Assembly: GCF_947495715.1 (NCBI RefSeq)
Contig: NZ_CANLZU010000004.1
Coordinates: forward strand, 1-64,000
Reading direction: 5' to 3'
DNA from: an uncultured Oceanisphaera sp.
GTDB lineage: Bacteria > Pseudomonadota > Gammaproteobacteria > Enterobacterales > Aeromonadaceae
DNA: 64,000 bases
Shown here piece after piece: positions 23,768-59,237 of this stretch. The position numbers and the translations under genes were made by a program. The notes under the pieces were generated by a model. The model was not told the DNA's origin. It saw nothing but the letters and a program-made list of their open reading frames with translations, and did no database searches. Within the stretch, counting starts at the first letter, position 1. Each line of letters opens with the position of its first letter.

Positions 23768-23786
23768 GAGGCAACAGGGTTGCCTC
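23768..23786 (+). terminator. Hairpin after acnA, first block of the dispersed repeat
   Basis: GAGGCAAC (23768-23775), loop AGG, GTTGCCTC (23779-23786): a perfect 8-bp stem 20 bp after the acnA stop. It has no T-run but may help end acnA mRNA. The same block starts the copies at 53502 and 58839. Confidence 0.45.
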
Positions 23787-23941
23787 TTCCTGACGCATGA
23801 GTTAGCCGGTGGCATCCCCAAAAGGCGATGCCCCAGCTTCAAGGAGGGCAAAGGGATCTGCTCAGCCGACCTTCTGTTTCAGGGATGAAACAGAGAGCGT
23901 ACATGGATGTATCCACAGCGTGTCGGCGGAGTGGGCCCTTT
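23768..23941. repeat. Dispersed hairpin repeat, copy 1 (between acnA and modE)
   Basis: Between convergent genes. The core at 23850-23941 begins AAAGGGATCTGCTCAGCCGAC and ends GTCGGCGGAG...GGGCCCTTT, so its ends pair. An internal perfect hairpin CTGTTTCA/TGAAACAG lies near 23874-23893. The same core ends occur at 53671-53740 and 59090-59182. No open reading frame of note. Confidence 0.8.
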
Positions 23942-24032
23942 GGCCGATGTGCAAACATCGGACTGAAAACGATCTGATTACCGACACTTTATGTGTAACT
24001 AAGAGACATTCTTAAAGCTGACAGCCGTCCAT

Positions 24033-24821
24033 TCACCCCAAGGTAGCCAGTATCACTTGAGAAGGAGCAAAACAGGCCTGAACCCGGTCACCGGCGGCCA
24101 GCTTCAGCCGGTGGCTGTCTGTTTTTGACAGCAGGGCGCACAGTGGTTCCCCCTGATCCAGCTGAAGTTCGTATTCATCGAATTCTTCCCCCGGCACAAC
24201 GGCAGTGATAATCCCCGGCAGGCGGTTATCACTGTCGGTAATGGCGGTTCTTTCCGGCACCAGCCTCACCCAGGGCGCCTTGACCAGCGCCAGTACTTCC
24301 TTACCGGGAATGAGCCCCAGCCGATGGCTGCTGCGTTCGGTAATATCCGCATAGACTCGAGCGCCGCCGGTCATCTGCAGGCAGATCTTGCGGTTGAGAT
24401 GCGTCGGCTCCAGCGTCAGCACGCGCGTAAAAAACTGGTTGCGGGCGCTGGTCTGCAGCGAAAAACGGGCCACTACCGACAGCAGGCTGTCGAGCGAAGT
24501 GGACTCGTCCTGCAGGGCGTCGACCGCCATGCGCTCGATTCGATTCAACAGACCATATATTTTAAGCAAGCGTTCGCCATAAGGCGTCAGTACGGCGCCG
24601 CCGCCGCCCTTGCCGCCGGTTTCACGTTCCACCACCGGGCTGTCGGCCAGCCGGTTGATGTCGTTTACCGCATCCCAGGCCGATTTGTAGCTGATGCCGG
24701 CGGCCCTGGCGCCCTGACTGATCGAGCCCTGAGCACGGATCTGCTCCAGCAAACGAATACGCTTGGGATTGACGAAAAGCTGCTCCTGGCTGTGCAGGCT
24801 TAGCAGTAGTTCCAAATCCAT
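24033..24821 (-). CDS. modE: Molybdate-responsive transcriptional regulator
   Basis: A 262-residue regulator with an N-terminal winged helix-turn-helix (residues ~15-75, including GSISQGARAAGISYKSAWDAV) and GGKGGGGAVLT, typical of ModE, followed by two molbindin/TOBE domains (about 125-262). With molybdate bound, ModE represses the modABC operon. It is divergent from modABC, and two ModE-like palindromes lie in between. Confidence 0.95.
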   Translation of the reverse strand: MDLELLLSLHSQEQLFVNPKRIRLLEQIRAQGSISQGARAAGISYKSAWDAVNDINRLADSPVVERETGGKGGGGAVLTPYGERLLKIYGLLNRIERMAVDALQDESTSLDSLLSVVARFSLQTSARNQFFTRVLTLEPTHLNRKICLQMTGGARVYADITERSSHRLGLIPGKEVLALVKAPWVRLVPERTAITDSDNRLPGIITAVVPGEEFDEYELQLDQGEPLCALLSKTDSHRLKLAAGDRVQACFAPSQVILATLG

Positions 24822-24887
24822 GATGGCTCCTCAGTATTACCGGCTGTCATTATGGCCACATTCATCCTTCTTCGCGGGCGGGGCAGT

Positions 24888-24915
24888 ATCGTTGTATTTT
24901 TATTTATATAGCGAT
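24888..24915. promoter_or_regulatory. ModE box 1
   Basis: An imperfect palindrome with ATCGTTGTAT at the left and TATATAGCGAT at the right, matching the classic ATCGNTATATA / TATATANCGAT ModE operator. It lies 50 bp before modA in the modE-modABC interval. Confidence 0.75.
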
Positions 24916-24921
24916 AGAGTG

Positions 24922-24949
24922 CCAGCGTTGTATCTATTTTTATATAGCC
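24922..24949. promoter_or_regulatory. ModE-like box 2
   Basis: GCGTTGTAT ... TATATAGC repeats the two half-sites of box 1 about 34 bp downstream, just before the modA ribosome site. The outer bases are less conserved than in box 1. Confidence 0.55.
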
Positions 24950-24965
24950 AGTGGAGAAGAGTGAA

Positions 24966-25724
24966 ATGCAACACCGACTGAGATTCACTCTGTTGTGTGC
25001 CGTTCTGGGGTGCTCGGCGCCGTTGGCCGCCGATGAAATTCGAGTGGCAGTAGCTACCAACTTCATCGAAGTGATGGAGCGGCTGGGCGATGATTTTGCC
25101 GCACAAAGCGGGCACCAGGTACTCATTTCTTCCGGAGCCACTGGCAAGCTGTATGCACAAATCAAGAACGGGGCTCCCTATGATGTGTTTCTGGCGGCAG
25201 ACGAACGGCGTCCGGCCCTGCTGGATCAAGAAGGGGTGGCCATTGCCGGCAGTCGTTTCACCTATGCGCTGGGCAAGCTGGTGCTGTGGAGCCCGATCGA
25301 AGATTACATTTCCCCTGATTTGCGGGTACTGAAGAAGCAGGATTTTCATTTTCTTTCCATCGCCAACCCGAAAACCGCACCTTATGGCCGTGCCGCGCAG
25401 CAGGTGCTGGAAAAGCAGGGTGTCTGGGCCGCGCTTAGGCCCAAAATGGTGCGCGGTGAAAACATCGGCCAGGCCTATCAGTATGTGTTCAGCCAAAATG
25501 CTCAGCTGGGATTTGTCGCCAAGTCCCAGGTATTCAAGAACGGTGTCTTTGCCGAGGGCTCTTACTGGCAGGTGCCGGAGCCGTTATATGATCCCATAGT
25601 GCAGCAGGCGGTATTGCTGAAAGACGGCGCCGCGGCTCGCCAGTTGCTGGACTATGTTCGTTCGCCGGCCGCCGCCGGGGTGATTGAATCCTACGGCTAT
25701 GGCGTGGCCGCCGGCTCCCATTAA
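24966..25724 (+). CDS. modA: Molybdate ABC transporter, periplasmic binding protein
   Basis: A 252-residue periplasmic protein with a signal peptide ending near LAADE (residues ~20-24). Type II binding-protein fold with SSGATGKLYAQI and GAPYDVFLAAD, which form the oxyanion site in ModA. The ATG at 24966 follows GGAGAAGA; a GTG at 24951 is less likely. First gene of modABC, probably repressed by ModE with molybdate. Confidence 0.94.
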   Translation: MQHRLRFTLLCAVLGCSAPLAADEIRVAVATNFIEVMERLGDDFAAQSGHQVLISSGATGKLYAQIKNGAPYDVFLAADERRPALLDQEGVAIAGSRFTYALGKLVLWSPIEDYISPDLRVLKKQDFHFLSIANPKTAPYGRAAQQVLEKQGVWAALRPKMVRGENIGQAYQYVFSQNAQLGFVAKSQVFKNGVFAEGSYWQVPEPLYDPIVQQAVLLKDGAAARQLLDYVRSPAAAGVIESYGYGVAAGSH

Positions 25725-25742
25725 CCGACATCAAGGAAAAGC

Positions 25743-26426
25743 ATGTTGTTGTCTCAGGACGATCTGTCGGCGCTGCTGCTGACGGTGCGATTGGCGGCGG
25801 TCACCGTGCTGGTGCTGCTGGTGATCGGCATGCCGCTGGCATGGTGGCTGAGCCAGAGTCGCTGTCGGCTCAAGACGCTGGTAGAGGCGGTGGTGGCACT
25901 GCCACTGGTGTTGCCGCCGACGGTACTGGGGTTTTACCTGCTGCTGGCGCTGGGGCCGAACGGCATCTTCGGCATCACCTCTCAGGCGCTGGGCGGTGGC
26001 ACCCTGGCGTTCAGTTTTACCGGTCTGGTGATCGGTTCGGCCTTTTATTCGCTGCCGTTCGTGGTGCAGCCGTTGCAAGGCGCCTTCGCCAGTATCGGCC
26101 GGCGTCCGCTGGAGGTAGCGGCTACCTTGCGGGCTTCGCCGCTGGATCGGTTTTTTACCGTGGTGCTGCCACTGGCCCGCAATGGCTTGTTAACGGCGGT
26201 GGTGCTCGGCTTTGCCCATACCCTGGGGGAATTTGGCGTGGTACTGATGATTGGCGGCAACATTCCGGGAGCGACCCAGGTGATCTCCATCGCCATCTAT
26301 GACCATGTCGAAACCCTGCAATACGGCGACGCGCATCTGCTGTCGGCCATTCTGCTGGTGTTGTCATTCAGCATATTGCTGCTGGTGTATGCGCTTAACC
26401 GACGCTTTGCGGTGGTGCACCCATGA
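25743..26426 (+). CDS. modB: Molybdate ABC transporter, permease
   Basis: A 227-residue inner membrane protein with about five transmembrane helices and the permease EAA-like loop (LEVAATLRASPLDRF). It pairs with ModC for molybdate import. It starts 18 bp after modA with an AAGGAA site, and its stop overlaps the modC start by 4 nt. Confidence 0.94.
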   Translation: MLLSQDDLSALLLTVRLAAVTVLVLLVIGMPLAWWLSQSRCRLKTLVEAVVALPLVLPPTVLGFYLLLALGPNGIFGITSQALGGGTLAFSFTGLVIGSAFYSLPFVVQPLQGAFASIGRRPLEVAATLRASPLDRFFTVVLPLARNGLLTAVVLGFAHTLGEFGVVLMIGGNIPGATQVISIAIYDHVETLQYGDAHLLSAILLVLSFSILLLVYALNRRFAVVHP

Positions 26427-27484
26427 GCATCCATGCCGCCTTTACCCTGCAGCGGCCCGACTTTCGACTGGAGGTGGAGTTCGAGCTGCCCGCCACCGGC
26501 GTCACCGCGCTGTTCGGCCCTTCCGGCTGTGGCAAAACCACCCTGCTGCGGGCCATGGCGGGTCTGGAGCGCTGCTCCGGGCATTTTCGGCTGGGCGAGC
26601 AATGCTGGCAAAGCGAGCAGCTGTTTGTGCCGACCCATAAAAGACGGCTCGGCTACGTGTTTCAGGAGGCGAGCCTGTTTGCACACCTGTCGGTACTGGG
26701 CAATCTGGAATATGGCTGGCGGCGGTTGCCGGCGGCGCTGCGGCGAGCCGACAAGGCGCAGTTGATCGACTGGCTGGGGCTGACGCCGCTGTTACACCAA
26801 CGGGCGACCGAGCTGTCCGGTGGTCAGCGCCAGCGAGTCGCCATCGGCCGGGCGCTGCTTACCAGCCCGCAGCTGTTGTTGCTGGACGAGCCGTTGTCGG
26901 CACTCGACACCCGCGCCAAGCGGGACATTCTGCCTCTGCTGGAACGACTCTCGGCCCAGGCCGGGGTGCCGGTGGTGTATGTCACCCATGCGCCGGAAGA
27001 AGTGGAACGGCTGGCCGATCGGGTGCTGTTGATGGAGGGTGGGCGCATCAGCCATAACGACAGCCTGCAGCAGGCACTGGCTCGCCCCTTGAGTCCCTTG
27101 TTTCGGGATGAAGACGCGGCGGGGGTGCTGGAAGGCCGGCTCGGCGAGGTGCTGGCCGATGGTCGGCTGCCGTTCGACTGCGCCGCCGGTCGGCTGTGGC
27201 TGGCCGGGCATGATCCTGCCGGGGCGGGGGCGGCCCGGCTGCGGGTGTTGGCTCGCGACGTCAGCGTGGCGCTGGCGCCGGTGCCCGATATTTCGGTGCT
27301 GAACCAGTTACCGGCGCGGGTAGTGAGTCTGACCCCAACCTCGACCGGGCAGGTGTTGCTGATGCTGGCACTCACCGGTGAGCTGCACATACCGGCGCGG
27401 CTTTCGGCCTATTCGGTCGAACAGCTGAAATTGATGCCGGGCAGCCCCTGCTATGCCCTGATCAAGGCGGCGGCACTGGTTTAA
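26423..27484 (+). CDS. modC: Molybdate ABC transporter, ATPase
   Basis: A 353-residue ATPase: Walker A GPSGCGKTT (about 30-38), signature LSGGQRQRV, Walker B LLLLDEPLSALD, and a C-terminal molybdate-binding TOBE domain (about 285-353) that can regulate transport. It overlaps modB by ATGA. Converges on rpiA. Confidence 0.95.
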   Translation: MSIHAAFTLQRPDFRLEVEFELPATGVTALFGPSGCGKTTLLRAMAGLERCSGHFRLGEQCWQSEQLFVPTHKRRLGYVFQEASLFAHLSVLGNLEYGWRRLPAALRRADKAQLIDWLGLTPLLHQRATELSGGQRQRVAIGRALLTSPQLLLLDEPLSALDTRAKRDILPLLERLSAQAGVPVVYVTHAPEEVERLADRVLLMEGGRISHNDSLQQALARPLSPLFRDEDAAGVLEGRLGEVLADGRLPFDCAAGRLWLAGHDPAGAGAARLRVLARDVSVALAPVPDISVLNQLPARVVSLTPTSTGQVLLMLALTGELHIPARLSAYSVEQLKLMPGSPCYALIKAAALV

Positions 27485-27509
27485 GCGGCGGCATCCGGGC
27501 GGACGCCGC
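27485..27509. terminator. GC-rich hairpin between modC and rpiA
   Basis: GCGGCG (27485-27490) pairs with CGCCGC (27504-27509) right after the modC stop. No T-run on either side, so a terminator role is tentative. Confidence 0.35.
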
Positions 27510-27518
27510 ACAAGAAGA

Positions 27519-28178
27519 TTAAACGCCTTTGCGGACCACACCACTCGGGCTGCCAATCAGCAGCACATCGGCGCCGCGTTCGGCGAACAGGCCGTTGGTC
27601 ACCACGCCGACGATGGCATTGATGCGGTTTTCCAGCTCTCTGGGCGCGGTGATCTGCAGGCCGTGCACATCCAGAATCTGGTTGCCGTTGTCGGTGATCA
27701 CGCCTTCCCGGTAGACCGGTTTGCCGCCGAGCTTGGCCAGTTCTCGGGCCACGTATTCACGGGCCATGGGAATGACTTCTACCGGCAGCGGAAAGCGGCC
27801 CATCACATCCACGGTCTTGGTGCCGTCGACGATACAGATGAAACGGTCGGCCACGGCGGCGACGATTTTTTCCCGGGTCAGGGCTGCGCCGCCGCCCTTG
27901 ATCATCGCCATGCTGTCGTCTATTTCATCGGCGCCATCCACATAAACGGCCAGCTCGCTGACGTCATTCAGATCGAAGATGCGAATGCCGAGCTGTTCCA
28001 GTCGGGCGGTGGAGGCTTCGGAGCTGGATACGGCACCCTTGATCTGATCCTTGACCGAGCCGAGGGCGTCGATAAAGTGATTAACGGTCGAGCCGGTACC
28101 CACACCCACTATGGTGCCCGGCGTTACGTAATCCAGCGCCGCCCAACCGGCGGCTTTTTTCATCTCATCTTGTGTCAT
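27519..28178 (-). CDS. rpiA: Ribose-5-phosphate isomerase A
   Basis: Interconverts ribose-5-phosphate and ribulose-5-phosphate in the pentose phosphate pathway. At 219 residues it equals E. coli RpiA. Motifs [21 protein letters not shown] and [11 protein letters not shown] are the phosphate-binding and catalytic loops. The start is the ATG at 28178 ([11 protein letters not shown]), the family N-terminus, not the longer upstream frame. Next to ygfA, as in many gammaproteobacteria. Confidence 0.97.
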
Positions 28179-28273
28179 GGCTTTTTTCTCTTGCTCAGGG
28201 CTATGGTGCTTACGGCGGTCTGCTGTAAAAGTGGCGGCATTATAGCAAAGCACACTTGCCTTGCATGTGGCTT

Positions 28274-28852
28274 TTACCAGCGCCAGTGCTGGTCGGGAGT
28301 GATCAGCTCCGGCAGGGGGATGTCCCAGCTGTCGGTAGGAATAGCGGGTAGTTGCTGGCAATTATGGGCCAGGCCCACGGGACGTGGCCCAAGTCCCTGA
28401 CGCCAGGCGGCCAGGGTGCGGTCGTAAAAGCCGCCGCCCATGCCGATGCGATTACCCTGGCTATCAAACGCGACCAGCGGGGTATAGATAACGTCCAGCT
28501 CCTGCTTGGGCAGCAACAGACGAATATCCAGTTTGGGCTCGGGAATACCGAAGCGGTTGGCAATCAGCCGGGTGTCGGGGTCATAGCGCAAAAACAGCAG
28601 GTGACCGGGGCTGAAGTGATGCAGCACCGGCAGGTACACCTGAGTACCTTGTGACCAGTACCAGTCAATCAGCGGCTGCGGATCCAGCTCGCCGTCGTTG
28701 GCCAGATACAGCGCCACCTTGCCGGCCTGGGCCAGATGCTCGGCGCCGGCCACATGCCGAATGATCACCTCGGATGCCGCCTGCTGCTCGGTGCCGCTCA
28801 GGGCTCGGCGGGCCTGGCGGATCTGCTGTCGTATTTGATGTCTGTCGGTCAT
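28274..28852 (-). CDS. ygfA: 5-formyltetrahydrofolate cyclo-ligase
   Basis: A 192-residue enzyme converting 5-formyl-THF to 5,10-methenyl-THF with ATP. The C-terminal signature [15 protein letters not shown], with YTPLVAFD just before it, is diagnostic. The ATG at 28852 (MTDRHQ) is chosen with AGGAC upstream; the frame extends further to 28948 but that part does not look like the family. In E. coli ygfA is co-transcribed with 6S RNA; here three genes lie between them. Confidence 0.92.
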
Positions 28853-28987
28853 GAAAGCGTCCTGCTTATTAAATTCCACGGTAAGGCGAGCAGTGTAAGG
28901 GGGAAGGGGGCTACGAAGGTGTGAACAGGCCTCGCCGTTCTTGTTCACCTCACGTCTTTCCTCTCATTCCTCACTCTTCTCGGCGGT

Positions 28988-29218
28988 TCAGTGATGCCAG
29001 GGGCTGTTCTTCAGCCGAACATAGAGTGCTTCCACTTCGGTGCGCGCCCAGGGGGTACGGCGCAGAAAGGTAAGGCTGGACTTGATGCTCGGATCCTTCT
29101 TGAAGCAGTTGATATTGACCCGGCGGGCCAGCTCTTCCCAGCCGTAACGATCCACCAGCTCGGTCAGCAGATCCTTGAGGGTAATACCGTGCAGCGGGTT
29201 GTTGGGTTGTTCTGTCAT
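28988..29218 (-). CDS. VF530/DUF2132 family small protein
   Basis: A 76-residue protein (start [14 protein letters not shown]) matching the VF530/DUF2132 family, which has a double-helix fold and is annotated as DNA-binding. It has no signal or membrane segment. The start at 29218 begins the conserved part; the frame upstream to 29410 is low quality. Function not established. Confidence 0.8.
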
Positions 29219-29397
29219 CGGGGAGTACCAGACGTGATTAACGAAGCAAGCCGCGATTGTAGCAGTATTTGCGCCAATGGCGGGAGAGGCATGATCCAGA
29301 ACAACCCCGTTGTCACAGAACTGTGCTAGTTTGAGTCCCATTGCCAATAGCAATGCCGATAACAATAAAACGCCTCGAGCAGGCACGGGAGAGCAAG

Positions 29398-30834
29398 ATG
29401 ACAAGAGCAAGAACCCCCGCTGTGGTGACCTGCTTTATTGCAGGTATGGCAGTGGCCTGGTTCAGTCAGGGCACTGGCGTGGTGAAGTCGGATCCGGAAC
29501 GCAATATCTGGATTCCGCCCACCCTGACCATGCCGCTGCAGGTACAGGCGGCCTATAACGACGAGCAGATCTTTTTTCGTTACCGCTGGCCGGCCGACAA
29601 GCCCCATGTTTATCACGACATGCTGCGCTATCAGGATGGCAACTGGGTTCGCTATGGTGCGTCGCGTACCGGCCCCGATCCCGAAGGCACCTATGAAGAT
29701 CGGGTCAGCATGCTGGTAGACGATGGCCGGGTACCGGAGTTTGGTCGCTATGGGGGCTACATCACCGTTGGCGCCGACATGCGGTTTTTCACTCATCAGG
29801 CCAGCAAGTCCGAGGTGGCCGCCGATCCTTATATCGGCGGGAAAATGGGCGCCAACGAGGTGCAGAAACATTTGCCCGCCACCCGTACCGACATGGCCGA
29901 CTGGCGAAGTGTAAAGTCAGAGTCCGATCTCGATGCGCAGCGCGCCAGTGGCTATTTTCTGGATCTCTGGCACTGGCGGGCCGGTCGCTCCAATGGGGTG
30001 AACATGTCCGACGACCAGCTGGTGGCCGGGCACCGGATCAGCGATGCCGGCAAGGGCCCCTTCAGCACCAACTGGGATGCAGAGCGCAATCAGCCGTTGT
30101 TCATGTTTGATCGCGACAAGGCCGGCATGGATGCTCTGACCTGGCGGCAGGTGCAGCAAGACAGCGTCGACTTTGATGGGGTCTATTATCTGTCGGAAGA
30201 CATGGCCAGGCCCTTCGACCCGACTCATGAGTGGCAGCAGGATGATGTGATTCCACGTCGTCTGCTGCGCAGCGGCCAGGGCTCCCGGGCCGACATCAGC
30301 GTGTTGGGTCAGGGACGCTGGCAGGATGGCTGGTGGGATATTACCCTGCAGCGCGCGCTGGATACCGGCCATCTGCTGGACGACAAGGCATTTCAGCATC
30401 AGGGGCGTTACGATCTCGCCTTTGCAGTGCACAGAGATGCGACCGGCAGTCGCTGGCACTATGTGTCTCACCCCTACACCCTGGGGCTGGGCCGTGATGC
30501 GGATCTGGTCGCCCGTTATATCGACGGCGATCGCCCGGTCTGGAACGATGACGGATGGACCGACATGACCCTGTTTTACCCAGGCCAGGTCAGCTGGCCA
30601 CAGTTGACCAGTCAGGCGCACGCCGGGGCGCCCAATATCGCCGCCGGTGAGCCGGTCAGGCCACGGCACAGCGAGCAGCAACTGGCACAATACGGGGTCG
30701 AAATGGAATTCAATGCCGAGATCACCCGCCAATGGTGGCTGACACTGGGCGCCGGTCTGGTGCTGATGCTTGGCCTGTGGCTGGGGCTGCGCCGTGACTT
30801 TACTTCCACTACCAAGCGAGGAGACGCACAATGA
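29398..30834 (+). CDS. Ethylbenzene-dehydrogenase-related heme-binding protein, membrane-anchored
   Basis: A 478-residue protein similar to the gamma subunit/heme-b domain of ethylbenzene dehydrogenase-type enzymes (EB_dh). A hydrophobic N-terminus (about 7-25) is a signal or anchor, the body is a beta-rich periplasmic domain with repeated [14 protein letters not shown]-type strands, and one transmembrane helix sits at about 442-462 before a basic tail. No CxxCH motif, so any heme would be b-type. GGGAGAG precedes the ATG. It overlaps the next membrane gene by 4 nt. The pair may move electrons to or from the quinone pool; that is inference. Confidence 0.78.
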
Positions 30835-31382
30835 CGGGCATGCATCATATGCTGGTTCACTTTCCATTGGCATTCTGGGCGCTGGCGCTATTGATGATGC
30901 TGCTGGGCCGCTTTCGGCAGAGCGCACTGGCGCAGGCGTGCCGGTCGGGCTTGCCAGCGGTGCTGGTACTGGCCTGGCTGGGTGCCATTGCCGCGCTGGT
31001 CAGTGGCTGGCTGGTGTGGCCGGCAGCGGCCAACCTGCATAGTCCCATGGTACGCAATCACCTGCTGATGTCACTGTGGGCCACCGGCCTGTGGACGGTG
31101 ATCACCCTGCTGGTCTGGCGGGCACAACACGCGGCGCTGAAAGGCGGGCAGGGGCTGATACTGATAGTGCTGGGGCTGATTGGCTCGGCGTTGTTTGCCA
31201 TCAGCGGTACTCTGGGGGGATACCTTGCCGGGGCTCCCACCCAGCTGTCACAACTGCTGGGGCAACTGGGCTGGTCGGTTTACGGCACCTTCTACCTGCC
31301 GGACTGGAGTTTGATGTTACTGGTGGTACTGGGGGTCGGCTGTGCCGTCTTGGGCATGGGCGGCCGGGCTCGTAACGCGTAA
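30831..31382 (+). CDS. DUF2231-like integral membrane protein
   Basis: A 183-residue protein with four predicted transmembrane helices. Histidines sit at helix boundaries (MHHMLVHFPLAFW at residues 4-16; NLHSPMVRNH near 67-76), as in DUF2231 proteins thought to be cytochrome-like. Translationally coupled (ATGA) to the heme-binding protein before it, so they likely form one complex. Function unknown. Confidence 0.75.
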   Translation: MTGMHHMLVHFPLAFWALALLMMLLGRFRQSALAQACRSGLPAVLVLAWLGAIAALVSGWLVWPAAANLHSPMVRNHLLMSLWATGLWTVITLLVWRAQHAALKGGQGLILIVLGLIGSALFAISGTLGGYLAGAPTQLSQLLGQLGWSVYGTFYLPDWSLMLLVVLGVGCAVLGMGGRARNA

Positions 31383-31404
31383 GCGCTACGCGATTATCGC
31401 GCAT

Positions 31405-31434
31405 AAAAAAAGACCGGCGTTGCCGGTCTTTTTT
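31405..31434. terminator. Bidirectional terminator between the heme/membrane module and 6S RNA
   Basis: GACCGGC, loop GTT, GCCGGTC, flanked by A6 on the left and T6 on the right, so the stem is long and works on both strands. It ends the + operon and faces the minus-strand 6S RNA. Confidence 0.85.
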
Positions 31435-31470
31435 GTGTCTCTCGAACAGATAACCAGAGAGAACCAAGAG

Positions 31471-31653
31471 GGAATCCCCAGGGTGCCGTTGCAGGTGTTA
31501 GTCCTTGAACCCGTTGGTTCAAGGCGGAAACCCGGTATCTACCGCAGGCTTCTCGGTCGGGCCGAGCATGCTCAATAGTAAATAACACGGCTTTCCTGTG
31601 CTGTGATTATCGGCTCAGGGACGCCACCCAACTGACGAACACCCCAGGGAAAG
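31471..31653 (-). ncRNA. ssrS: 6S RNA
   Basis: On the minus strand I see the E. coli-like blocks in order: CCCTGAGCCGATA, then GAGCATGCTCGG, CGAGAAGCC, and the perfect late hairpin CCTTGAACC/GGTTCAAGG, ending in GGGGATTCC. The 5' and 3' ends pair (CCCTGGGGTG with CACCCTGGGG, including G-U pairs) to form the closing stem around the large central bulge that mimics open promoter DNA. Length is about 183 nt (E. coli 184). It binds and inhibits sigma-70 RNA polymerase in stationary phase. It lies downstream of zapA on the same strand, as in E. coli. Ends are estimated to within a few bases. Confidence 0.93.
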
Positions 31654-31687
31654 CTAAACTTTTATCTTAAATCCAAACGCGTGCTAC

Positions 31688-31987
31688 CTAGCCTACCTTG
31701 CTGGCCAGGGCATCTTCAATCGTATGCTGAAGCATTTTGATGCGCTTATCCATGGCGTCAGCATATTGGTAGTTCTTGTCTTTTTCAAGCTCAAGTTCAT
31801 GGCACACATTCAGGGCCAGCATAATGGCGATCTGCTCATTCGAGCCCGCCTTGCCGCCCTGCTTGAACTTGTGTATACGCTCGTTGAGCATATCGGCTGC
31901 CCGTTGCAATGCCGCTTCCTGCCCAACAGGACAGGCCACCTTATAAGGGCGCCCGAGAATAACGATGTCGATTGCCGCTGTGGTCAT
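31688..31987 (-). CDS. zapA: Cell division protein ZapA
   Basis: A 99-residue cytoplasmic FtsZ-ring-associated protein. The N-terminal domain has VDIVILGR-like IDIVILGRPYKVACP and the C-terminal half is a coiled coil (about 55-95). The start at 31987 (MTTAAIDIV) has GAGGATC seven bases upstream. It stands just upstream of 6S RNA and divergent from ygfB. Confidence 0.92.
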   Translation of the reverse strand: MTTAAIDIVILGRPYKVACPVGQEAALQRAADMLNERIHKFKQGGKAGSNEQIAIMLALNVCHELELEKDKNYQYADAMDKRIKMLQHTIEDALASKVG

Positions 31988-32705: not shown

Positions 32706-32723
32706 GCAAGACCGTTCAACCAA

Positions 32724-51371: not shown

Positions 51372-51465
51372 AACGCCTGAATTGATGATGAGTAAACGTC
51401 GATGCTAATCAGAGCAAACCGGGATTACCAGCCCATCGCTGCAAAAGTGAGCGCCGGGCCCTTAT

Positions 51466-52467
51466 TCAGGCGAGCGCCCGGCTGCTGTCTCTGACGATCA
51501 ACTCGGGCGTCAGGGTCAGTACCCGGCGGGGGCAGTCCGGTGTCTTGATGCGCGCCAGCAGGGTGTCGACCGCCAATGCGCCCATGCCGGCCTTGGGCTG
51601 CTCTACGCTGGTGAGCGCCGGCACCAGATAATGGGTCAGTTCTATGTTGTCGTAGCCCACCAGCGACATCTGCTCCGGCACGGAAACACCGGCATCGGCC
51701 AGGGCCCTGAGTGCCCCCATGGCCATCATGTCGTTGCCGACAAACACCGCCGTGGGCCGTTCGGGCAGGGCGAGCAGGGCGGTCATGGCGCTGTTGCCGC
51801 CGGCCAGCTCGAAGTCGCCCTCGATGACCCACTCCGGTCGTACCGTCAGGCCGGCCCTGGTCATGGCGGCTTCAAAGCCCGCCCGGCGTTCGTCTGCCGC
51901 CCGCTTGCCCCGGGGGCCGGTAATACAGCCGATATGGCGATGACCCAGGCCAAGCAGGTGCTCGGTGGCAAGCATGCCACCCAGACGGCCGCCGTCCTGA
52001 ATCAGATCCGCTTCCATGTCCATCGGGCCCCAGTCGGCCAGTACCAGGGGCACGCTGGGGTAGCGGTCGAACACGCCGGCGCCCAGATCGACCTGGGTGC
52101 ACATCAGAATAATGCCGTCTACCCGCTTTTGCAGCAGCATCTCCATGCTGGCGTTAAGCCGCGCCTTGTCGCCGCGGGTATTGCACAGCGCCAGGCTGTA
52201 ACCCAGCTCGAAACAGCGTTGTTCCACCCCTTGTACCACCTCGGCAAAAAAGGGGTTGGCACTACTGGTCACCAGCATACCCAGGGTCCGGGTTTCATTG
52301 CTCTTGAGGCTGCGCGCCAGCGCCGAAGGTGCGTAGTGAAGCTCGTCGATGGCCTGTTCGACCCGCAAGGTGATCTCGGGGCTGACAAAGCGGGTCTTGT
52401 TCAGTACATGGCTGACGGTAGAGGTCGACACCTGTGCCCGCCGTGCCACGTCCTTGATGGTGGCCAT
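51466..52467 (-). CDS. rbsR: Ribose operon repressor, LacI family
   Basis: A 333-residue repressor: LacI helix-turn-helix (TIKDVARRAQVSTSTVSHVL, residues 3-22) and a periplasmic-binding-protein-like sensor domain. Encoded last in rbsDACBKR, its start overlapping the rbsK stop (TGATG). Expected to bind ribose and to repress rbs; a candidate operator is at 57836-57850. Confidence 0.93.
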   Translation of the reverse strand: MATIKDVARRAQVSTSTVSHVLNKTRFVSPEITLRVEQAIDELHYAPSALARSLKSNETRTLGMLVTSSANPFFAEVVQGVEQRCFELGYSLALCNTRGDKARLNASMEMLLQKRVDGIILMCTQVDLGAGVFDRYPSVPLVLADWGPMDMEADLIQDGGRLGGMLATEHLLGLGHRHIGCITGPRGKRAADERRAGFEAAMTRAGLTVRPEWVIEGDFELAGGNSAMTALLALPERPTAVFVGNDMMAMGALRALADAGVSVPEQMSLVGYDNIELTHYLVPALTSVEQPKAGMGALAVDTLLARIKTPDCPRRVLTLTPELIVRDSSRALA

Positions 52468-53375
52468 CAGCGGGACTCCAGCAGGACGTTGATCTCGGCC
52501 AGGTAAGGAACCGAGGTCTGGGCGCCGGGCCGGGTCACGGACAGGGCCGCCGCCGCCTGGGCGAAACGCACCGCCTGCTCCAGCGGCTGTTGCTGCAATG
52601 CCGCCAGCAGGGCACCGTTGAAGGTATCGCCCGCCGCCGTGGTGTCCACCGTCTCGACCTTGAAGCCCGGTATGACTCGGCCCTGACCCTGCTCGCTCAG
52701 CCAGACGCCGCGGGCACCCAGGGTGATGATGACGGTAGCGATGCCTTTGGCATGCAGTGCCCGGGCCGCCGCCGCCGCGCCGGCATCGTCGTGTACCGCG
52801 ATACCGGTCAGCCGTTCGGCCTCGGTTTCGTTGGGGGTGATCAGATCCACCAAAGACAACAATTCATCGGGTAGCGCCTGAGCCGGGGCCGGGTTGAGCA
52901 CCACACGCGCCCCCTGAGCCTTGGCCTGACTGGCGGCGGCGATGTTGGTGTCGAGCGGAATTTCCAGTTGCAGCAGCAGCTGTTCGCAGCTCAGACCGGC
53001 CGAATGCCGGTTCAGCTGTTCGGGCGTCAGTCGGCCATTGGCACCGGCGGCGAGGGAAATGGTGTTCTCGCCTTCGCCATTCACCTGGATCAAGGCCACC
53101 CCGGTGTTGATGCCGGTCATGCGTTCGATGGCGCTTACATCAATGCCGTCGGCGGCAAAGCCATCGATCAGGCTTCGGGCCAGGGCATCGTCACCCACGC
53201 AGGCGATAAAGCGGGTCGCGGCCCCGGCCCGGGCGGCAGCCACCGCCTGGTTGGCGCCTTTGCCGCCGGGCACGATGCGATAGTCGCTACCGGTCAGGGT
53301 TTCACCGGGGCGGGGAAACTGCGGCAACCGGATCACATGATCGATGTTGATGCTGCCTACTACGGTTAATGTCAT
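52467..53375 (-). CDS. rbsK: Ribokinase
   Basis: Phosphorylates ribose to ribose-5-phosphate, which RpiA (27519) can interconvert. A PfkB-family kinase of 302 residues with IVPGGKGANQAVAAAR and the C-terminal anion-hole motif DTTAAGDTFNG. The ATG at 53375 has AAGG upstream; another in-frame ATG is at 53393. Coupled to rbsR. Confidence 0.95.
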   Translation of the reverse strand: MTLTVVGSINIDHVIRLPQFPRPGETLTGSDYRIVPGGKGANQAVAAARAGAATRFIACVGDDALARSLIDGFAADGIDVSAIERMTGINTGVALIQVNGEGENTISLAAGANGRLTPEQLNRHSAGLSCEQLLLQLEIPLDTNIAAASQAKAQGARVVLNPAPAQALPDELLSLVDLITPNETEAERLTGIAVHDDAGAAAAARALHAKGIATVIITLGARGVWLSEQGQGRVIPGFKVETVDTTAAGDTFNGALLAALQQQPLEQAVRFAQAAAALSVTRPGAQTSVPYLAEINVLLESR

Positions 53376-53456
53376 GGTGTTTGCCTTATTCATTAAATCG
53401 GGGACCGACTGCGTTAGCAGTACAGAGCCCCCGCCTGTTATTTTTTACCCTGAGCC

Positions 53457-53795
53457 TTATACCAACCCCAGATGATCTGATCATATTGAGGCCCCGGACC
53501 AGAGGCAACACAGTCGCCTCCCTCGACACGCCATAAACCCATCCTTGGGGGCTCGGAAATGCCGTCCTTGGCATTTCACGGTCGTGGTAGTCGATCTCTG
53601 TTGCCTCTTCTCAAGCACCGAGTTGCCTGTAGACAATGCCAACAGGTAACTCCCTGACATCAGGGAGGATAAAGGGATCTGCTTCGCCGACCCTCCGCGC
53701 CAAGGATGTATTCATGGCGTGTCGGCGGAGCGGGCCCTTTATCCGGCCTTTGCAGAGCAACCAAACAGATCAATTATTTAATCTGTTTGGTATTA
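53457..53795. mobile_element. MITE-like dispersed repeat, copy 2 (between rbsK and rbsB)
   Basis: About 339 bp with imperfect terminal inverted repeats: TTATACCAACCCC at the left and GTTTGGTATTA at the right. Inside, in order: GAGGC...GCCTC hairpin (from 53502), block B (53524-53584, with AAATGCC/GGCATTT), GTTGCCTGT/ACAGGTAAC, CTCCCTG/CAGGGAG, core (53671-53740, AAAGGG...CCCTTT), and the rbsB-proximal stem. No ORF worth naming, no transposase. The right end includes the rbsB stop codon. Calling it mobile is inference from its ends and dispersion. Confidence 0.65.
53761..53790 (-). terminator. Perfect 10-bp stem-loop just after rbsB
   Basis: CCAAACAGAT and ATCTGTTTGG are exact inverted copies with a 10-nt loop, 2 bp beyond the rbsB stop. 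No T-run, so it may protect the rbsB mRNA end rather than stop transcription into rbsK. Confidence 0.55.
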
Positions 53796-54674
53796 CTCGC
53801 TGATCACCTGCAGCGGAACCGGAATATGGTTGGCCACGGTTTCACCCTTCAGGATTCTGTCGGCAGTTTCTACCGCGATGGCACCGATGGCATCCGGCTG
53901 CTGGGCGATGGTAGCCGCCAGACGACCGCCTTGCACCGCCTTGATGCCATCCCGCGTGCCATCAAAGCCGACGATCATTACGTCTTTCTTGTTGGCCGCC
54001 TGCAGCGCGCGCATGGCACCCAGCGCCATTTCGTCATTCTGGGCAAACACCGCCTGTACTTCCGGGTTGCCGGTCAGCAGGTTTTCCATCACGTTCAGGC
54101 CCTTGGTGCGGTCAAAGTCCGCCGGTTGGCTGGCCATCAGCTCGAAGCCGTGTTTGGTGACCGCCTGGGCAAAACCGTTGCCACGCTCGCGGGCGGCGCT
54201 GGTGCCGGCAATGCCTTCCAGCTGAATCACTTTGGCGTCGGCGCCAATCTGCTCGGCAATATAGTCACCGGCCATCAGGCCACCGGCCACGTTGTCGGAG
54301 GCGATATGCGACACCACTTCACCACGGTTGGCGGCCCGGTCCAGGGTCAGTACCGGCAAGTCGGCCCGGTTGGCCAGACGAATGGCGTTGGTGACCGCAT
54401 CGGAGTCGGTGGGGTTGATCAACAGCACCTTGGTGCCGCGCACGCTCAAGTCTTCCACGTTGGCCAGCTCTTTGGCCGGATCGTTCTGGGAGTCCAGCAC
54501 GATCAGCTCATAGCCAAGCTCTTCTGCCTTTTGCTCGGCACCTTCTTTCATGGTCACGAAAAAGGGGTTGTTGAGGGTCGAGATCACCAGGGCCAGGGTA
54601 TCTTTGGCGTAGGCACCCGAGGTCATGGTGGCGCTGATCAGGGCAGCGGAGAGCAGGGTCGTCAGTTTTTTCAT
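53793..54674 (-). CDS. rbsB: Ribose ABC transporter, periplasmic binding protein
   Basis: A 293-residue periplasmic ribose-binding protein with a signal peptide (cleavage near AYA-KDTLA, residue ~23) and type I fold ([19 protein letters not shown] shortened: [14 protein letters not shown]; later DRAANRGEV). Flanked on both sides by hairpin repeats, unlike the other rbs genes. Confidence 0.96.
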
Positions 54675-54732
54675 GATTCAGCTTCCTTTCGGGTTAAAGA
54701 CAGCGTTAGTTTGTATATTAACAAGGTCGAAC

Positions 54733-54826
54733 AAAGGGGCCACTACACCGACACGCCGTAAACCCCTCCCTGGGGGCTCGGACATGCCATCCATGGCATG
54801 TCACGGTCGGTTTAGTGCTCCCCTTT
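54733..54826. repeat. Dispersed hairpin repeat, copy 3 (between rbsB and rbsC)
   Basis: 94 bp whose ends pair: AAAGGGG with CCCCTTT, then CACTA with TAGTG and ACCGAC with GTCGGT. The interior holds CCCC/GGGG and the perfect ACATGCCAT/ATGGCATGT stem, so RNA could fold into a cross. The interior (54749-54809) matches block B at 53524 and 58861. Confidence 0.8.
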
Positions 54827-54889
54827 ATTCGCCCCCATGCGTAGAGGTCGTTAGCCTCTTATTGCCAAATTTTGTGTCGTTACCAATAG

Positions 54890-55855
54890 TTACTTGTGTT
54901 TGTTGTCGACCAGCACTGCCAGCAGGATCACCGAGGCCTTGGCGATCATCTGATAGTAGGAAGACACATCCAGCAGGTTGAGCGCGTTGTTCAGAAAACC
55001 GATGATCAGCGCCCCGATCAGGGTGCCCATAATGGCGCCCTTGCCGCCGGCCAGGCTGGTGCCACCCAGTACCACGGCGGCGATGGCGTCCAGCTCGTAG
55101 GTGGTGCCGGCGGTTGGCTGGGCCGATGACAGGCGGCTGGTGACGATAATGGCGGCCAGGGCCGACAGCATGCCGCAGATGGCATACACGCCCATCTTGA
55201 CCCGGGCGACATTGATGCCCGACAGCCTTGCCGCCGCTTCGTTACCGCCCACCGCATAGATATAGCGGCCAAAGCGGGTGTGGTTGAGCAGATACCAGGC
55301 GCCGAGGAAGGTCATGGCCATCAGCCATACCGGTACCGGAATGCCGAACACATAGCCGGTGCCGAACCAGGAGAAGATGTCGCCCGCATCGGTAAAACCG
55401 GTGGAGATGGGGCGACCATCGGTATAGACCATGGTCACGCCGCGCAGCAGGGTCATGGTGACCAGGGTGGCAATAAAGGCCTGTACCCGGCCCTTGGCGA
55501 CGATGAGGCCGCTGACGCCACCGAGGGCAAAGCCGGCCAGCAACACCGCCGGCAGGGTGATGAAAATGGACAGCTCCATCGACACCATGCTGGCGGCAAA
55601 GGCGCCGCACAGCGCCAGTACCGAGCCCACGCTGAGATCGATGCCGGCGGTGAGGATCACCAGGGTCATGCCCACGGCAATAATGGCGTTGACCGAGGTC
55701 TGACGCAGTATGTTGAGCAGGTTGTCAACGGTGAAAAAGTTGGGGCTCAGTGCAGAAACCACCGCGATCAGCACCAGCAGGGCAATCAGCGATTTCTGGG
55801 CAATCAACCATTCCTTGCTGAACCAGCGGCGGCTATTAATGGCGGGGGAGTTCAT
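54890..55855 (-). CDS. rbsC: Ribose ABC transporter, permease
   Basis: A 321-residue inner membrane protein with eight to ten transmembrane helices; typical BPD_transp_2 segments [15 protein letters not shown] and [18 protein letters not shown]. Its start overlaps the rbsA stop by 4 nt. Confidence 0.95.
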
Positions 55856-57354
55856 GCATCTTCCTCTTGTTGAGTCTGACCTACGGCGGCGGCCAGCAGT
55901 TGTTCCTGGGTCGCGGCGGTGGCGTTGAATTCACCGGCAATACACCCTTCGTGCATCACCATGATACGGTCACTGATCCCCAGCACTTCCGGCATATCGG
56001 ACGACACCAGAATAATGGCCATGCCTTCCTGCTTGAAACGGTTGATCAGCTGATAGATTTCTTTTTTTGCACCCACATCGACGCCGCGGGTCGGCTCGTC
56101 GAGGATCAATACTCTGGGGCGCGTCATCAGTCCCTTGGCGATGGCCACTTTCTGCTGGTTGCCTCCCGACAGGTTTCCAATCAGCTGCTCGCGACCCGGG
56201 GTACGGATCTTGAACAGCGAAATAAACTCGTCCACGGCACCACGTTCGGCCTGGTGATCGAGCTGGGGGCCCCGGCTCAGCTGGGCCAGCGCCGACAGGC
56301 TCATGTTGATTTTGACCGACAAATCCAGCACCAGACCATCGCCCTTGCGGTCTTCTGAAATATAGGCGATACCGGCGGACAATCCCTGTTGCGGGCTGTT
56401 GGCGACATAGGGTTTTCCTGCCAGCCAGACCTGGCCTTTGGTGCGGGGCAGGGCACCGTACAGGGTCTTGACCAGTTCGGTACGACCGGCGCCCATCAAG
56501 CCGGAAAAGCCCAGGATTTCGCCCTCATGCAGGCTGAAGCTGACCCCGTTTACTCCTGTGCCGCTCAGATCTTTTACCTTCAACACTTCCGGCCCCTGAG
56601 GAACACTGATGCGCGGGTATTGCTCGTCCAGCTTGCGGCCAACCATCATTTCGATCAGGCGGTCTTCGTCGATATCGCTTACCGCATCTTCGCCGATCCA
56701 TTTGCCATCGCGGAGTATGGTGACCCGGTCGCAGATCTCGAAGATTTCCTTCAGGCGATGAGATATGTAGACGATGCCGCAACCATCGGCTCGCAGTTCT
56801 TCAATCACCCGGAACAGGGCGCGGGTTTCGGTATCGGTCAGGGCATCGGTAGGCTCGTCCATGATGATGACGTCGGCCTTGAACGACAGCGCCTTGGCGA
56901 TTTCCACCATCTGCTGGGCGCCGATGCTGAGATCACCGACGCGGGTCTTGGGAGACTGGCGGATCTGCAATCGATCCAGCAATACCTGGGCGTCGGCGTA
57001 GAGCCGGGTCCAGTCGATTTTGCCGAAGGCATTGACCGGCTCGCGCCCGAGAAAAATGTTCTCGGCAATGGTCAGCTCGTTCAGCAGGTTCAACTCCTGA
57101 TGAATGATGCCTATACCCGCCTGTTGCGAGTCGCGCGGACCCTTGAAGTGACAGGGCCGGCCACGATAACGGATCTCGCCGGCATCCGCCTGATAGATAC
57201 CGGTCAGCACCTTCATCATGGTGGATTTTCCGGCGCCATTCTCGCCCATCAGCGCCATTACCTGGCCCGGATACACGTTGAGTCCGGCCTGATCCAGCGC
57301 CTTGACGCCGGGAAAGGCCTTGTCGATGCCGGATAGAGACAATATGGGTTCCAT
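55852..57354 (-). CDS. rbsA: Ribose ABC transporter, ATPase
   Basis: A 500-residue double ATPase (E. coli 501). The first Walker A is canonical (GENGAGKST); the second half has the degenerate GLMGAGRTE typical of RbsA. The signature [15 protein letters not shown] lies in the second half. Start at 57354 with GAGGTGAG upstream; 7 bp after rbsD. Confidence 0.96.
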
Positions 57355-57361
57355 GCTCACC

Positions 57362-57781
57362 TCAGAAAGGAACGCCGCAGCGCAGTATGATGTTGGCGTA
57401 AGGGGTGCATTCGCCGGTGCGCACCACGGCGCGAGCGCAGGCATTTTGCCGCTTGAACGCCACGTGGCTGATGTAGCTTACCGCTATGTCCCGGCCCTGA
57501 GTCTGGCCGGCCTCGGCCAGCTGGCTCAGCAATTGTTGGTGAAGTTCGGGACTGACGGTTTTAATTTCTTCCGCCAGCACCACCGACTCCAGCTGCAATT
57601 CACTCAGCAGCGCCGCCAGTACCGGCTGCAGGCCGGGTAACCCCGGGCTGACCGCCAGATCGATACGCTCGGGACCGGCGGGAATGGGCAGGCCCGCATC
57701 GGCCAGCACTATTTCGTCAGTATGGCCGACGCCGGCGACCAGCGCGGATAAATGACTGTTAAGCAAGGTGGTTTTCTTCAC
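57362..57781 (-). CDS. rbsD: D-ribose pyranase
   Basis: 139 residues, as in E. coli RbsD. Catalytic His20 in AGVGHTDEI and the C-terminal [10 protein letters not shown]. Converts beta-pyranose to beta-furanose ribose for RbsK. First gene of the operon. Confidence 0.96.
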
Positions 57782-57835
57782 GGTATCGCCTTGTTCTGGA
57801 GCTGAAACGCTCCGAAAATTAACCAGAAATGGTGA

Positions 57836-57850
57836 GCGAAACGGTTACGC
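57836..57850. promoter_or_regulatory. Candidate RbsR operator
   Basis: GCGAAACGGTTACGC is a near-perfect palindrome of LacI type (one mismatched pair), close to the E. coli RbsR site core GCGAAACGTTTCGC. It sits just downstream of the predicted transcript start of rbsD. Confidence 0.6.
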
Positions 57851-57867
57851 AATCGATTCGATGGTCA

Positions 57868-57873
57868 ATTGTA
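57868..57873 (-). promoter_or_regulatory. Predicted -10 of the rbs promoter
   Basis: Minus-strand TACAAT, with transcription expected to start near 57860. No clear -35, as expected for a CRP-dependent promoter; the CRP site is about 61 bp upstream. Confidence 0.45.
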
Positions 57874-57913
57874 GACAATAAATCCGTATTTTGTGTAAGT
57901 GTAGTAAGGGAAA

Positions 57914-57929
57914 CGTGAGACAGATCACA
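57914..57929. promoter_or_regulatory. CRP (cAMP receptor protein) site
   Basis: CGTGA-N6-TCACA matches the TGTGA-N6-TCACA consensus at nine of ten positions. Its centre is about 61 bp from the predicted rbs start, the class I position. It could also affect miaE on the other strand. Confidence 0.65.
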
Positions 57930-58057
57930 GAAGCCGATTCGCCAGACCGCCCCACCGTCGGCGCCATTATTCGGACTGTTGTTGGCCGTACGAATTGATA
58001 AAATAGCGGCATCAACCCCATTGAACCTCGCCGTCAGGCCGGGGACAGGTACTTATT

Positions 58058-58879
58058 TTGCACCCACATTCACTGAATTCAGAGCTTGGCCAGTTGCTGG
58101 CGCCCATTCATGCCTTTCTGCAGTGTGACACTCCCGATGAATGGATAGCCGAGGCACGAAAGCCGGAACAGCTGGCCGCGCTGCTGGTGGATCATGCCAA
58201 CTGCGAAATGAAGGCGGCGATGAGTGCCCACAGCCTGGTACGCCGTTATTGTCTGCCGAAAGAAAAACGCAAATTGTTGCCCAATCTGGACTTTTACAAG
58301 ACGCTCGACGCCCTGCCGGAAAAAGGCGAGGTGCTGGGCAAGCAGACCCTGCTGGATGAAAACCGGCGGGTGTTCGACGAGCTGGCCAAGAACGATCTGC
58401 TGGTGAAAATGGTGCGCCTGATCCAGGAAGAACTGCATCATTTCGAGCAGGTGCTGGAGATCATGGCGGCCAGAAACATCGAATACAGCAGCCTGTCGGC
58501 GTCCGGCTATGCCCGTGGTCTGCTACAGCATGTACGGACCCACGAGCCGGCGGCCATCGTCGATCGGCTGATCATCGGTGCCTATATCGAGGCGCGTTCC
58601 TGTGAACGCTTTGCCCGGCTGGCGCCGTATCTGGACGAGGAACTGAACCGGTTTTATATCTCACTGTTACGCTCGGAGGCGCGCCATTATCAGGACTATC
58701 TGACCCTGGCCGCCGATTACAGCGGCCGGAATATCGATGAACGGGTGGCATTTTTCGGCGCCCGGGAAGCGGAGCTGATACAGGCGCCCGACGCGACACT
58801 GCGTTTTCACAGCGGCGTACCTGCAGGCCATGGTTTCAGAGGCAACAAAGCTGCCTCCCACGACACGCCACTGGGCTAG
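58058..58879 (+). CDS. miaE: tRNA-(ms2io6A)-hydroxylase MiaE
   Basis: A di-iron enzyme that hydroxylates the ms2i6A37 base of tRNA. 273 residues if translated from TTG at 58058 (no in-frame ATG nearby; AGG upstream). Iron ligands are likely in DHANCEMKAA, EELHHFEQV, EARSCERF and SEARHYQDYL. The last ~14 residues (after HSGVPAGHGF) are encoded by the start of dispersed repeat copy 4, so the C-terminus is probably extended compared with relatives. Confidence 0.92.
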   Translation: MHPHSLNSELGQLLAPIHAFLQCDTPDEWIAEARKPEQLAALLVDHANCEMKAAMSAHSLVRRYCLPKEKRKLLPNLDFYKTLDALPEKGEVLGKQTLLDENRRVFDELAKNDLLVKMVRLIQEELHHFEQVLEIMAARNIEYSSLSASGYARGLLQHVRTHEPAAIVDRLIIGAYIEARSCERFARLAPYLDEELNRFYISLLRSEARHYQDYLTLAADYSGRNIDERVAFFGAREAELIQAPDATLRFHSGVPAGHGFRGNKAASHDTPLG

Positions 58880-59237
58880 CCATCTTTGCTGGGTAACGCT
58901 GCGAATATTCACTGGATATTCGGTCCATTACCCAACAAAGATACACGGCAGCAAGCTGCCCCATGAGGGCTCGGGAAATGCCGTTCATGGCATTTCACGG
59001 TCGTGGGCGTCTATCTCTGTTGCTTCTTCTCGAGCATCGAGTTGTCTGTAGACGGCGCTAACAGGCAACGCCGGTGCATCAAGGAGGACAAAGGGATCTG
59101 CTCAGCCGACCATCCGCGCCACGGATGGCGCGGCTGAGCCTCCAGGGAGGGATTCACGGCGAGTCGGGGGAGCGGGCCCTTTGTTCGACGTTTATACAAA
59201 AATGCAATAGATCATTTGTTTAGTGGGATTGGTATAA
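58839..59237. repeat. Dispersed hairpin repeat, copy 4 (between miaE and sapF)
   Basis: Starts within the 3' end of miaE. Contains the GAGGCA/TGCCTC hairpin, block B (58861-59003, interrupted by a separate palindrome at 58882-58942), the GTTGTCTGT/ACAGGCAAC segment and the core (59090-59182, AAAGGG...CCCTTT), which also holds CTCAGCC/GGCTGAG and CATCCG/CGGATG stems. It ends GGGATTGGTATAAG (59225-59238), matching the right end of copy 2. The left end appears lost. Confidence 0.75.
58882..58942. repeat. Nested 61-bp palindrome inside repeat copy 4
   Basis: ATCTTTGCTGGGTAA (58882-58896) and TTACCCAACAAAGAT (58928-58942) pair with one mismatch. The interior has CGAATAT/ATATTCG. This segment is absent from block B of copies 2 and 3, so it looks like an insertion. 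Confidence 0.75.

Follow-up and report, generated by a model that had tools for sequence, protein, structure and literature searches.

What is the hairpin-rich repeat that occurs four times in a 64,000-nucleotide stretch of an uncultured Oceanisphaera sp. (contig NZ_CANLZU010000004.1, positions 1 to 64,000 of the forward strand, that whole stretch being hereafter the window)? The four copies, at 23768-23941, 53457-53795, 54733-54826, and 58839-59237, were all found where the original prediction had placed them. That prediction had proposed a structured mobile or regulatory family, which proposal was borne out by 274 unit matches in the host genome together with compensatory changes in the stems; the family had thus been grasped, though the description did not yet include the near-invariant ANGGA loops, the opposite orientation of the two blocks, the TNA-flanked terminal repeats, or the class-wide spread. 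On the evidence that follows, we think it rather probable that the repeating unit is a structured RNA element presenting two high-affinity Csr/Rsm sites, which element is dispersed over the genome and, in this genus, is borne by a miniature inverted-repeat transposable element (MITE).

The unit is a Y of about 80 nt, with one outer stem bearing two hairpins, and its parts follow one another on one strand as outer stem, CCGACC, hairpin 1, GAGC, hairpin 2, GCG(T/A)GTCGG, and outer stem again. In the complete element, a left unit (minus strand), a hairpin spacer, and a right unit (plus strand) are enclosed by short terminal inverted repeats. The general unit pattern, made up of hairpin 2 and the junction, gave 133 + 141 = 274 matches in the host genome (3.65 Mb; a draft of 82 contigs) and 0 in the reversed control, which number corresponds to about one unit per 13 kb and stands against the about five genome-wide copies below which the original prediction would not have spoken of a family. 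The start of the core, AAAGGGATCTGCT, occurred with at most one mismatch 69 times forward and 67 times in reverse (136 genome-wide; reversed control 0), and a 344-base query found at least 58 pieces in the same genome, 40 of the 217 candidates being scored.

That the hairpins are kept by different sequences, as had been claimed for the window, also holds in both of our alignments. In the host-genome alignment (77 of 131 distinct units, all chosen with at least one A.GGA and so biased for the loops), the Y structure was paired in 93.8% of the cells; doubly changed paired cells numbered 297 versus 92 in shuffles, with 0/500 shuffles as high, and shifting the pairing partners by 1-3 columns lowered the pairing to 31-51%. 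RNAalifold alone recovered both hairpins and the outer stem. The 88 distinct units of named loci, in a model-fitted alignment mostly of other families (two of the loci, Oceanisphaera and Zobellella, probably being of the host's own family), were 94.7% paired, with 661 doubly changed cells versus 181 in shuffles. In four distant genomes the inner ~58 nt were near-constant among copies, the long outer stems varying among copies within one genome; in the loci L135-L303 the outer stem, with up to 40 pairs counted, had a median length of 24 pairs. The distant genera in L164-L183 likewise had long, near-perfect outer stems whose sequence differed within one genome and whose arms were loosely related, from which we read that the two arms change in concert, be it through selection or through templated repair.

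Both hairpins present, on one and the same strand, a hexaloop ANGGAX closed by a C-G pair, N and X being free. Hairpin 1 has stems of many interchangeable sequences, and its apical eight bases are constant as CANGGANG. Among units selected by their outer sequences only, two CANGGANG were found in 82/89 and one in 7/89 of one type, and two in 40/41 and one in 1/41 of the opposite type. Over the 77-unit alignment, the fixed positions of the hairpin 1 loop were A in 77, G in 77, G in 77, and A in 76 units, and those of hairpin 2 were A in 76, G in 76, G in 73, and A in 77, with all four bases used in the N and X columns. In other genera, where the scanning pattern contained hairpin 2 only, so that the loop counts of hairpin 2 are biased there, a hexaloop was present in hairpin 1 of 75/88 pattern-found units, 67 of the 120 fetched stretches having been passed to the model, and this was ANGGA in 73/75; of the 34 further units found by the model, 33 had ANGGA in hairpin 1. 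The pooled set thus had the hexaloop in 109/122 units and ANGGA in 106/109, alongside 85 different hairpin 1 stems and 112 different outer 8-mers among the 122.

The high-affinity Csr/RsmE site is described in structural work as an ANGGAX hexaloop placed immediately on top of a stem, its N and X being variable (PMC4005645), and the CsrA consensus obtained through systematic evolution of ligands by exponential enrichment (SELEX) as RUACARGGAUGU, with loops mostly of six bases (PMC7652899). As sequence patterns, the unit loops match this published CsrA/RsmE site, the free positions included. Of 145 units, 130 had the starts of the two A.GGA motifs 23 nt apart, 14 had them 24 nt apart, and 1 had them 22 nt apart; in the host genome the distance was 22-25 nt in the 72/77 aligned units that have two CANGGA. 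A start distance of 23 nt leaves 18 nt between the motifs, which spacing falls inside the reported range of 10-63 nt for the bridging of two sites, with an optimum above 18 (PMC7652899). The host genome has one CsrA gene and three matches to CsrB (Rfam RF00018), two of them over the cut-off. Two of these three are followed on the 3' side by an element (L066:966-1327 and L101:643-1074), the end of one element being some 25 bases away from its match and the unit of the other lying about 430 bases off, which proximity chance may explain.

Which strand folds was approached through the isolated non-Watson-Crick pairs of the outer stems, counted as single mismatches between Watson-Crick pairs in stems located without using them, G-U and A-C being treated alike; covariance-model-fitted alignments were set aside because of their bias towards G-U. 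Folding of the ANGGA strand as RNA would let G-U pairs stand but not A-C pairs, which on the other strand are G-U. Read on the ANGGA strand, the 145 units of L135-L303, four of which are a unit entered twice, had 97 G-U and 21 A-C (95 and 22 over 144 units in a recount without double entries). With one vote per unit there were 60 for G-U and 12 for A-C, with 73 ties, and per locus 55 versus 12. The host genome gave 81 to 18, pairs that are not independent because the copies are related, and the host's family 16 to 6. By context, G-U:A-C was 20:0 in the 23 units sense to both neighbours, 21:6 in the 35 convergent-spacer units, 15:2 at contig edges, and 11:1 without context. The excess of G-U over A-C indicates that the ANGGA strand acts single-stranded, probably as RNA.

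The unit extends well beyond the genus. A family scan with model R1 (up to 62 candidates scored per genome) found it in 37/75 genomes, namely in all 23 of the genus, the host included, and in 1/1, 2/3, and 11/11 genomes of the genera g15, g16, and g17, respectively. In the class sample (E<=1e-4) it was present in at least 71/369 genomes, the host's own included, and at least 64/272 genera, which figures are lower bounds since only 12 candidates were scored per genome; in the phylum sample (E<=1e-6), 28/398 genomes had it, all being the host's own, of the same order, or of the same class (the number outside the class not being shown). Carriers of the exact pattern, in a scan of at least 120 stretches in which metagenome bins may be mislabelled as to taxon, comprised, among the matches listed, Oceanisphaera, Zobellella, Marinobacter, Microbulbifer, Halopseudomonas, and Rheinheimera, and furthermore Stenotrophomonas, Luteimonas, Lysobacter, and Cellvibrio. 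Plasmid and phage records gave no match to the one 71-nt core, from genome G324, used as the query.

Within the window, the units and element ends are distributed as follows.

23768-23786, no strand: GAGGC..GCCTC hairpin of copy 1, a truncated element in whose sequence no terminal repeat was seen
23850-23941, plus strand: Y-unit of copy 1, with outer stem AAAGGG/CCCTTT and two CANGGANG hairpins on the plus strand
53457-53459, no strand: left target-site duplication TTA of copy 2, from the empty site in G016
53460-53792, no strand: complete element of copy 2, with ends TACCAA..TTGGTA
53524-53584, minus strand: core of the left Y-unit of copy 2, with two CANGGANG loops on the minus strand
53622-53652, no strand: spacer hairpin GTTGCCTGT..ACAGGTAAC of copy 2, between its two units
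53671-53740, plus strand: right Y-unit of copy 2, shortened to 70 nt and carrying a single CANGGANG
53793-53795, minus strand: right duplication TTA of copy 2, which serves the rbsB-like gene (53793-54674, minus strand) as its TAA stop codon
54733-54826, minus strand: solitary Y-unit, copy 3, in the spacer of the rbsC-like and rbsB-like genes
58861-59003, minus strand: left Y-unit of copy 4, degenerate, with an insert of about 80 nt
59090-59182, plus strand: right Y-unit of copy 4, with two CANGGANG loops on the plus strand
59229-59237, no strand: right end of copy 4, TTGGTA plus TAA, no left end being seen

The sequence blocks that the copies had been said to share are real, blastn inside the window giving E values as low as 2e-47 between copies; but what had been described as two things, a block B (CGACACGCC..GGTCG) and a core, is one Y-unit in opposite orientations, block B being the unit on the minus strand and the core the unit on the plus strand, as comparison with 29 further copies indicated. 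Copies 1 and 4 are the two that lie between convergent genes, as originally stated, and copies 2 and 3 are flanked by co-directional genes resembling the rbs operon. The description of all four as intergenic was nearly right, the exception being copy 4, whose first bases fall within the miaE reading frame (58058-58879), at its 3' end. The overlap covers 58839-58879 and the MiaE domain stops at residue 252/273, so that the last residues of the predicted protein are encoded by the element. In the left unit of copy 4 the GGA of the loops is lost, as read by eye from the sequence. Copy 3 sits 58 bases upstream of the rbsB-like start with its ANGGA strand the same as that of the rbsC-like and rbsB-like genes, which position and strand make a local effect on the rbsB-like mRNA possible.

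In this genus the units form divergent pairs within the MITE, whose ends are TACCAA/TTGGTA and which is flanked by a 3-bp TNA duplication. The sister species G016 retains the empty site of copy 2 (..CCTGAGCC TTA CTCGCTG..), at which the host genome has the 333-bp copy between two TTA, and mobility is thereby shown for one copy, copy 2. Copy 3 is missing from G016 as well, with 20 instead of 202 bases between the aligned parts. The flanking triplets were TNA in 39/41 bounded rows (15 TTA, 12 TAA, 7 TCA, and 5 TGA; background 4.8%), in a script output that retained only ends with equal triplets and that contains the element L017 in two rows. Of 85 TNA-TACC sites close to units, 15 have as their TNA the stop codon of an adjoining called gene, as at the rbsB-like gene of the window. 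A partner transposase was not found: among 94 matches to one 23-base end pattern in the 82-contig draft, there were by eye no facing ends 0.7-3 kb apart. As a mover, a RAYT/Y1 transposase was rejected, since of the two Y1_Tnp loci in the host genome (3.2-3.4 kb, about 1.5 kb on each side) neither contained a unit.

Genes around the units were called by a simple codon-usage script rather than a standard caller. In the host genome, 95/97 element groups of the fetched loci were intergenic, and their composition was 42 '-+', 31 '-', 23 '+', 1 '++', and 0 '+-'. The 93 groups with both neighbours comprised 44 convergent, 47 co-directional, and 2 divergent placements, as compared with 7, 38, and 6 gene pairs, respectively, in the window (chi-square p 7e-5). 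In L135-L303, loci under 1500 bases being excluded from the gene-context counts, 133/145 units were intergenic, and the 112 with both neighbours were 42 convergent, 27 sense, 37 antisense, and 6 divergent. Outside the host genome, adjacent units separated by less than 400 nt, taken from model hits, were 20 '-+', 5 '++', 2 '--', and 0 '+-'; whichever side a transcript comes from, the '-+' order places one unit in its path in the ANGGA sense. Tandem arrays of one orientation also occur, with six units about 227 bases apart in G627:C1:94430-95646 and four about 180 bases apart in L189:3120-3737.

From these sequence features we infer that the units are transcribed, bind CsrA, and have a regulatory effect. 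The Y would offer two ANGGAX hexaloops on C-G pairs with about 18 nt between them, so that both could be gripped by a single CsrA dimer. The units, which lie mostly at 3' ends and between convergent genes, would there be included in read-through transcripts, many copies would jointly take up CsrA as a dispersed sponge, and single copies would anchor CsrA on the mRNAs in which they lie. With two divergent units per MITE, the transcript of either strand would carry one in the ANGGA sense; the MITE inserts at TNA, sometimes within a stop codon that the duplication then restores. More tentatively, and with doubt outweighing confidence, one may imagine a decentralised CsrA/RsmA layer in which hundreds of RNA platforms scattered over the Gammaproteobacteria, and in one genus borne by a transposable element able to enter stop codons, couple free CsrA to bulk read-through transcription, a mobile repeat thus tuning the global regulator. 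Should the units bind CsrA, models that count only CsrB-type small RNAs and leader sites would overlook, in many Gammaproteobacteria, a pool of sites that may be very large, and a global regulon would gain new members from a transposable element; a testable function is thereby put forward for an abundant intergenic repeat that matched no Rfam family in our searches.

A number of observations weigh against this interpretation of the unit as a twin Csr site acting in RNA. The distribution is patchy, with 0/37 genomes of g14, a genus of the same family, carrying the unit (62 candidates scored per genome); hairpin 1 lacks the hexaloop in 13/122 other-genera units, four of these having CAGGAYG; and the hairpin 1 stems, of 6-10 bp, look longer than in most SELEX ligands, whose stems have four or fewer contiguous pairs (PMC7652899). 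Between co-directional genes there was no preference for the mRNA strand (27 sense versus 37 antisense, p 0.26), nor among single units (21 versus 29, p 0.32), and we accordingly dropped sense-strand preference as support for a function in the 3' untranslated region. A purely cis-acting function there predicts an orientation bias, whose absence is the main weakness of the reading we favour; no such bias would be required for a sponge supplied by read-through of either strand, or for a role at the DNA level. In the wobble count the 30 antisense units had 15:7 (p 0.067), alone not significant, as were neither the divergent (5 units, 5:3) nor the in-gene-call (8:3) groups. The sense and antisense groups differed (p 0.009, two-sided; small numbers), and since the antisense asymmetry was not reversed, a transcription-linked mutation bias alone does not fit. 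The long outer stems in other genera, moreover, could owe their perfection to templated quasipalindrome repair and not to selection.

These points bear differently on the explanations that compete with an RNA carrying Csr sites. The Y might act as folded single-stranded DNA recognised by a transposase or recombinase, in the way that RAYT/TnpA-REP recognises REP hairpins; such an enzyme would contact the ANGGA loops, whose likeness to CsrA sites would be coincidental. A single-stranded DNA function would predict constant loops on free stems and G-T over A-C equally well, the fixed-order doublets recall those of REP (background in PMC2817692), and the lack of a sense preference suits it; but movement in the genus is accounted for by the TACCAA ends and the TNA duplication, both outside the units, neither Y1 transposase locus has a unit within about 1.5 kb on each side, the free N and X coincide with those of the Csr/Rsm sites (PMC4005645), and the wobble asymmetry is, in small numbers, stronger in sense units, as transcription predicts. 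We thus regard this explanation as unlikely. Less likely still is an ordinary 3'-end RNA structure, a REP-like stabiliser or attenuator of mRNA in which the stems matter and the loop sequence is incidental: although the stems covary and the placement, convergent and co-directional with few divergent cases, is that of REPs (PMC3733652), the loops would be free to drift if only the stems had a function, whereas these loops are far better conserved than the stems (ANGGA in 106/109 hexaloops versus 85 different stems). A functionless selfish MITE, with stems kept by templated repair and loops constant only through the youth of the copies, would account for the terminal repeats, the duplication, and the empty site, as well as for the long near-perfect outer stems of differing sequence in other genera; yet the loops are constant over many genera beside 112 different outer 8-mers among 122 units, a diversity showing that the copies are not young; beside the constant loop bases, N and X have varied freely; and templated repair predicts equal G-T and A-C. 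This last explanation we consider very improbable.

The original prediction knew of no named family matching the repeat, and in our searches no Rfam family reached its gathering score on a unit: at that score the window gave one match, 6S, which is not a unit, and the 18/29 loci of L135-L163 that were searched gave none. At E<=1, five element loci gave an S15 leader, a chance match to an IRES, and Ysr224 (RF02770), which last candidate, lying over elements in L002 and L013, was rejected at E 0.64 and 0.73, with 21 bits against a cut-off of 70. The small RNAs CsrB/CsrC and RsmX/Y/Z resemble the repeat in their several GGA hairpins, which in those RNAs bind CsrA dimers, but are a few dedicated genes, whereas the repeat has two sites per unit and hundreds of dispersed units. 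Like MITEs of TNA-duplicating transposons (a duplication of the IS5/IS1031 kind), the element is short and has inverted ends, TACCAA/TTGGTA, a 3-bp TNA duplication, and an empty site; unlike in such MITEs, the inner unit is conserved far beyond the genus, and no such ends were seen in the distant flanks examined, those of Oceanisphaera L196 excepted. With REP, BIME, and REPIN sequences the repeat has in common a high copy number, an extragenic location with few divergent cases, and solitary units along with fixed-order doublets. REPs of the GTAG- or CGTC-tagged kind are single palindromes of 20-40 bp with that tag unpaired (PMC3733652). The present unit, in contrast, is a three-way Y of about 80 nt with two ANGGAX loops, and by eye has no GTAG/CGTC tag at a constant end. 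ERIC/IRU and Correia elements are hairpin-rich intergenic repeats bounded by terminal inverted repeats, as is the repeat here, the comparison being by description only, and to our knowledge twin Csr sites are not known in them. Among the matches listed in searches of the open-licence PMC literature we found no description of CsrA-binding repeats or of the repeat sequence, and the excerpts of PMC9788540, PMC8144298, and PMC12889724 contain nothing on CsrA-binding repeats. The MITE and the Csr site are known kinds, and their union and class-wide extent are new as far as we have searched.

Some further observations concern variants and neighbours of the element. In L013, L021, L023, and L026 the left units have an extra arm inside hairpin 1, in which insert a hairpin was read by eye that has CCANGGANGG on the strand complementary to the unit's ANGGA strand. 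A second end type, ATACCAATCTAARTAAAAATATG, has many occurrences in genome G000 and also adjoins units (e.g., C1:148733 and C7:64130). Of the two Y1_Tnp loci, L306 (G000:C15:50446-50658) contains a 108-aa fragment of a Y1 transposase, RAYT-like by eye, with no unit adjoining, and L305 a pair of IS200/IS605 type (by eye) near a degenerate element remnant that starts with TAATACCAATCCC. The 6S match in the window marks a 6S RNA gene at 31471-31653 on the minus strand (Rfam RF00013, 118.8 bits).

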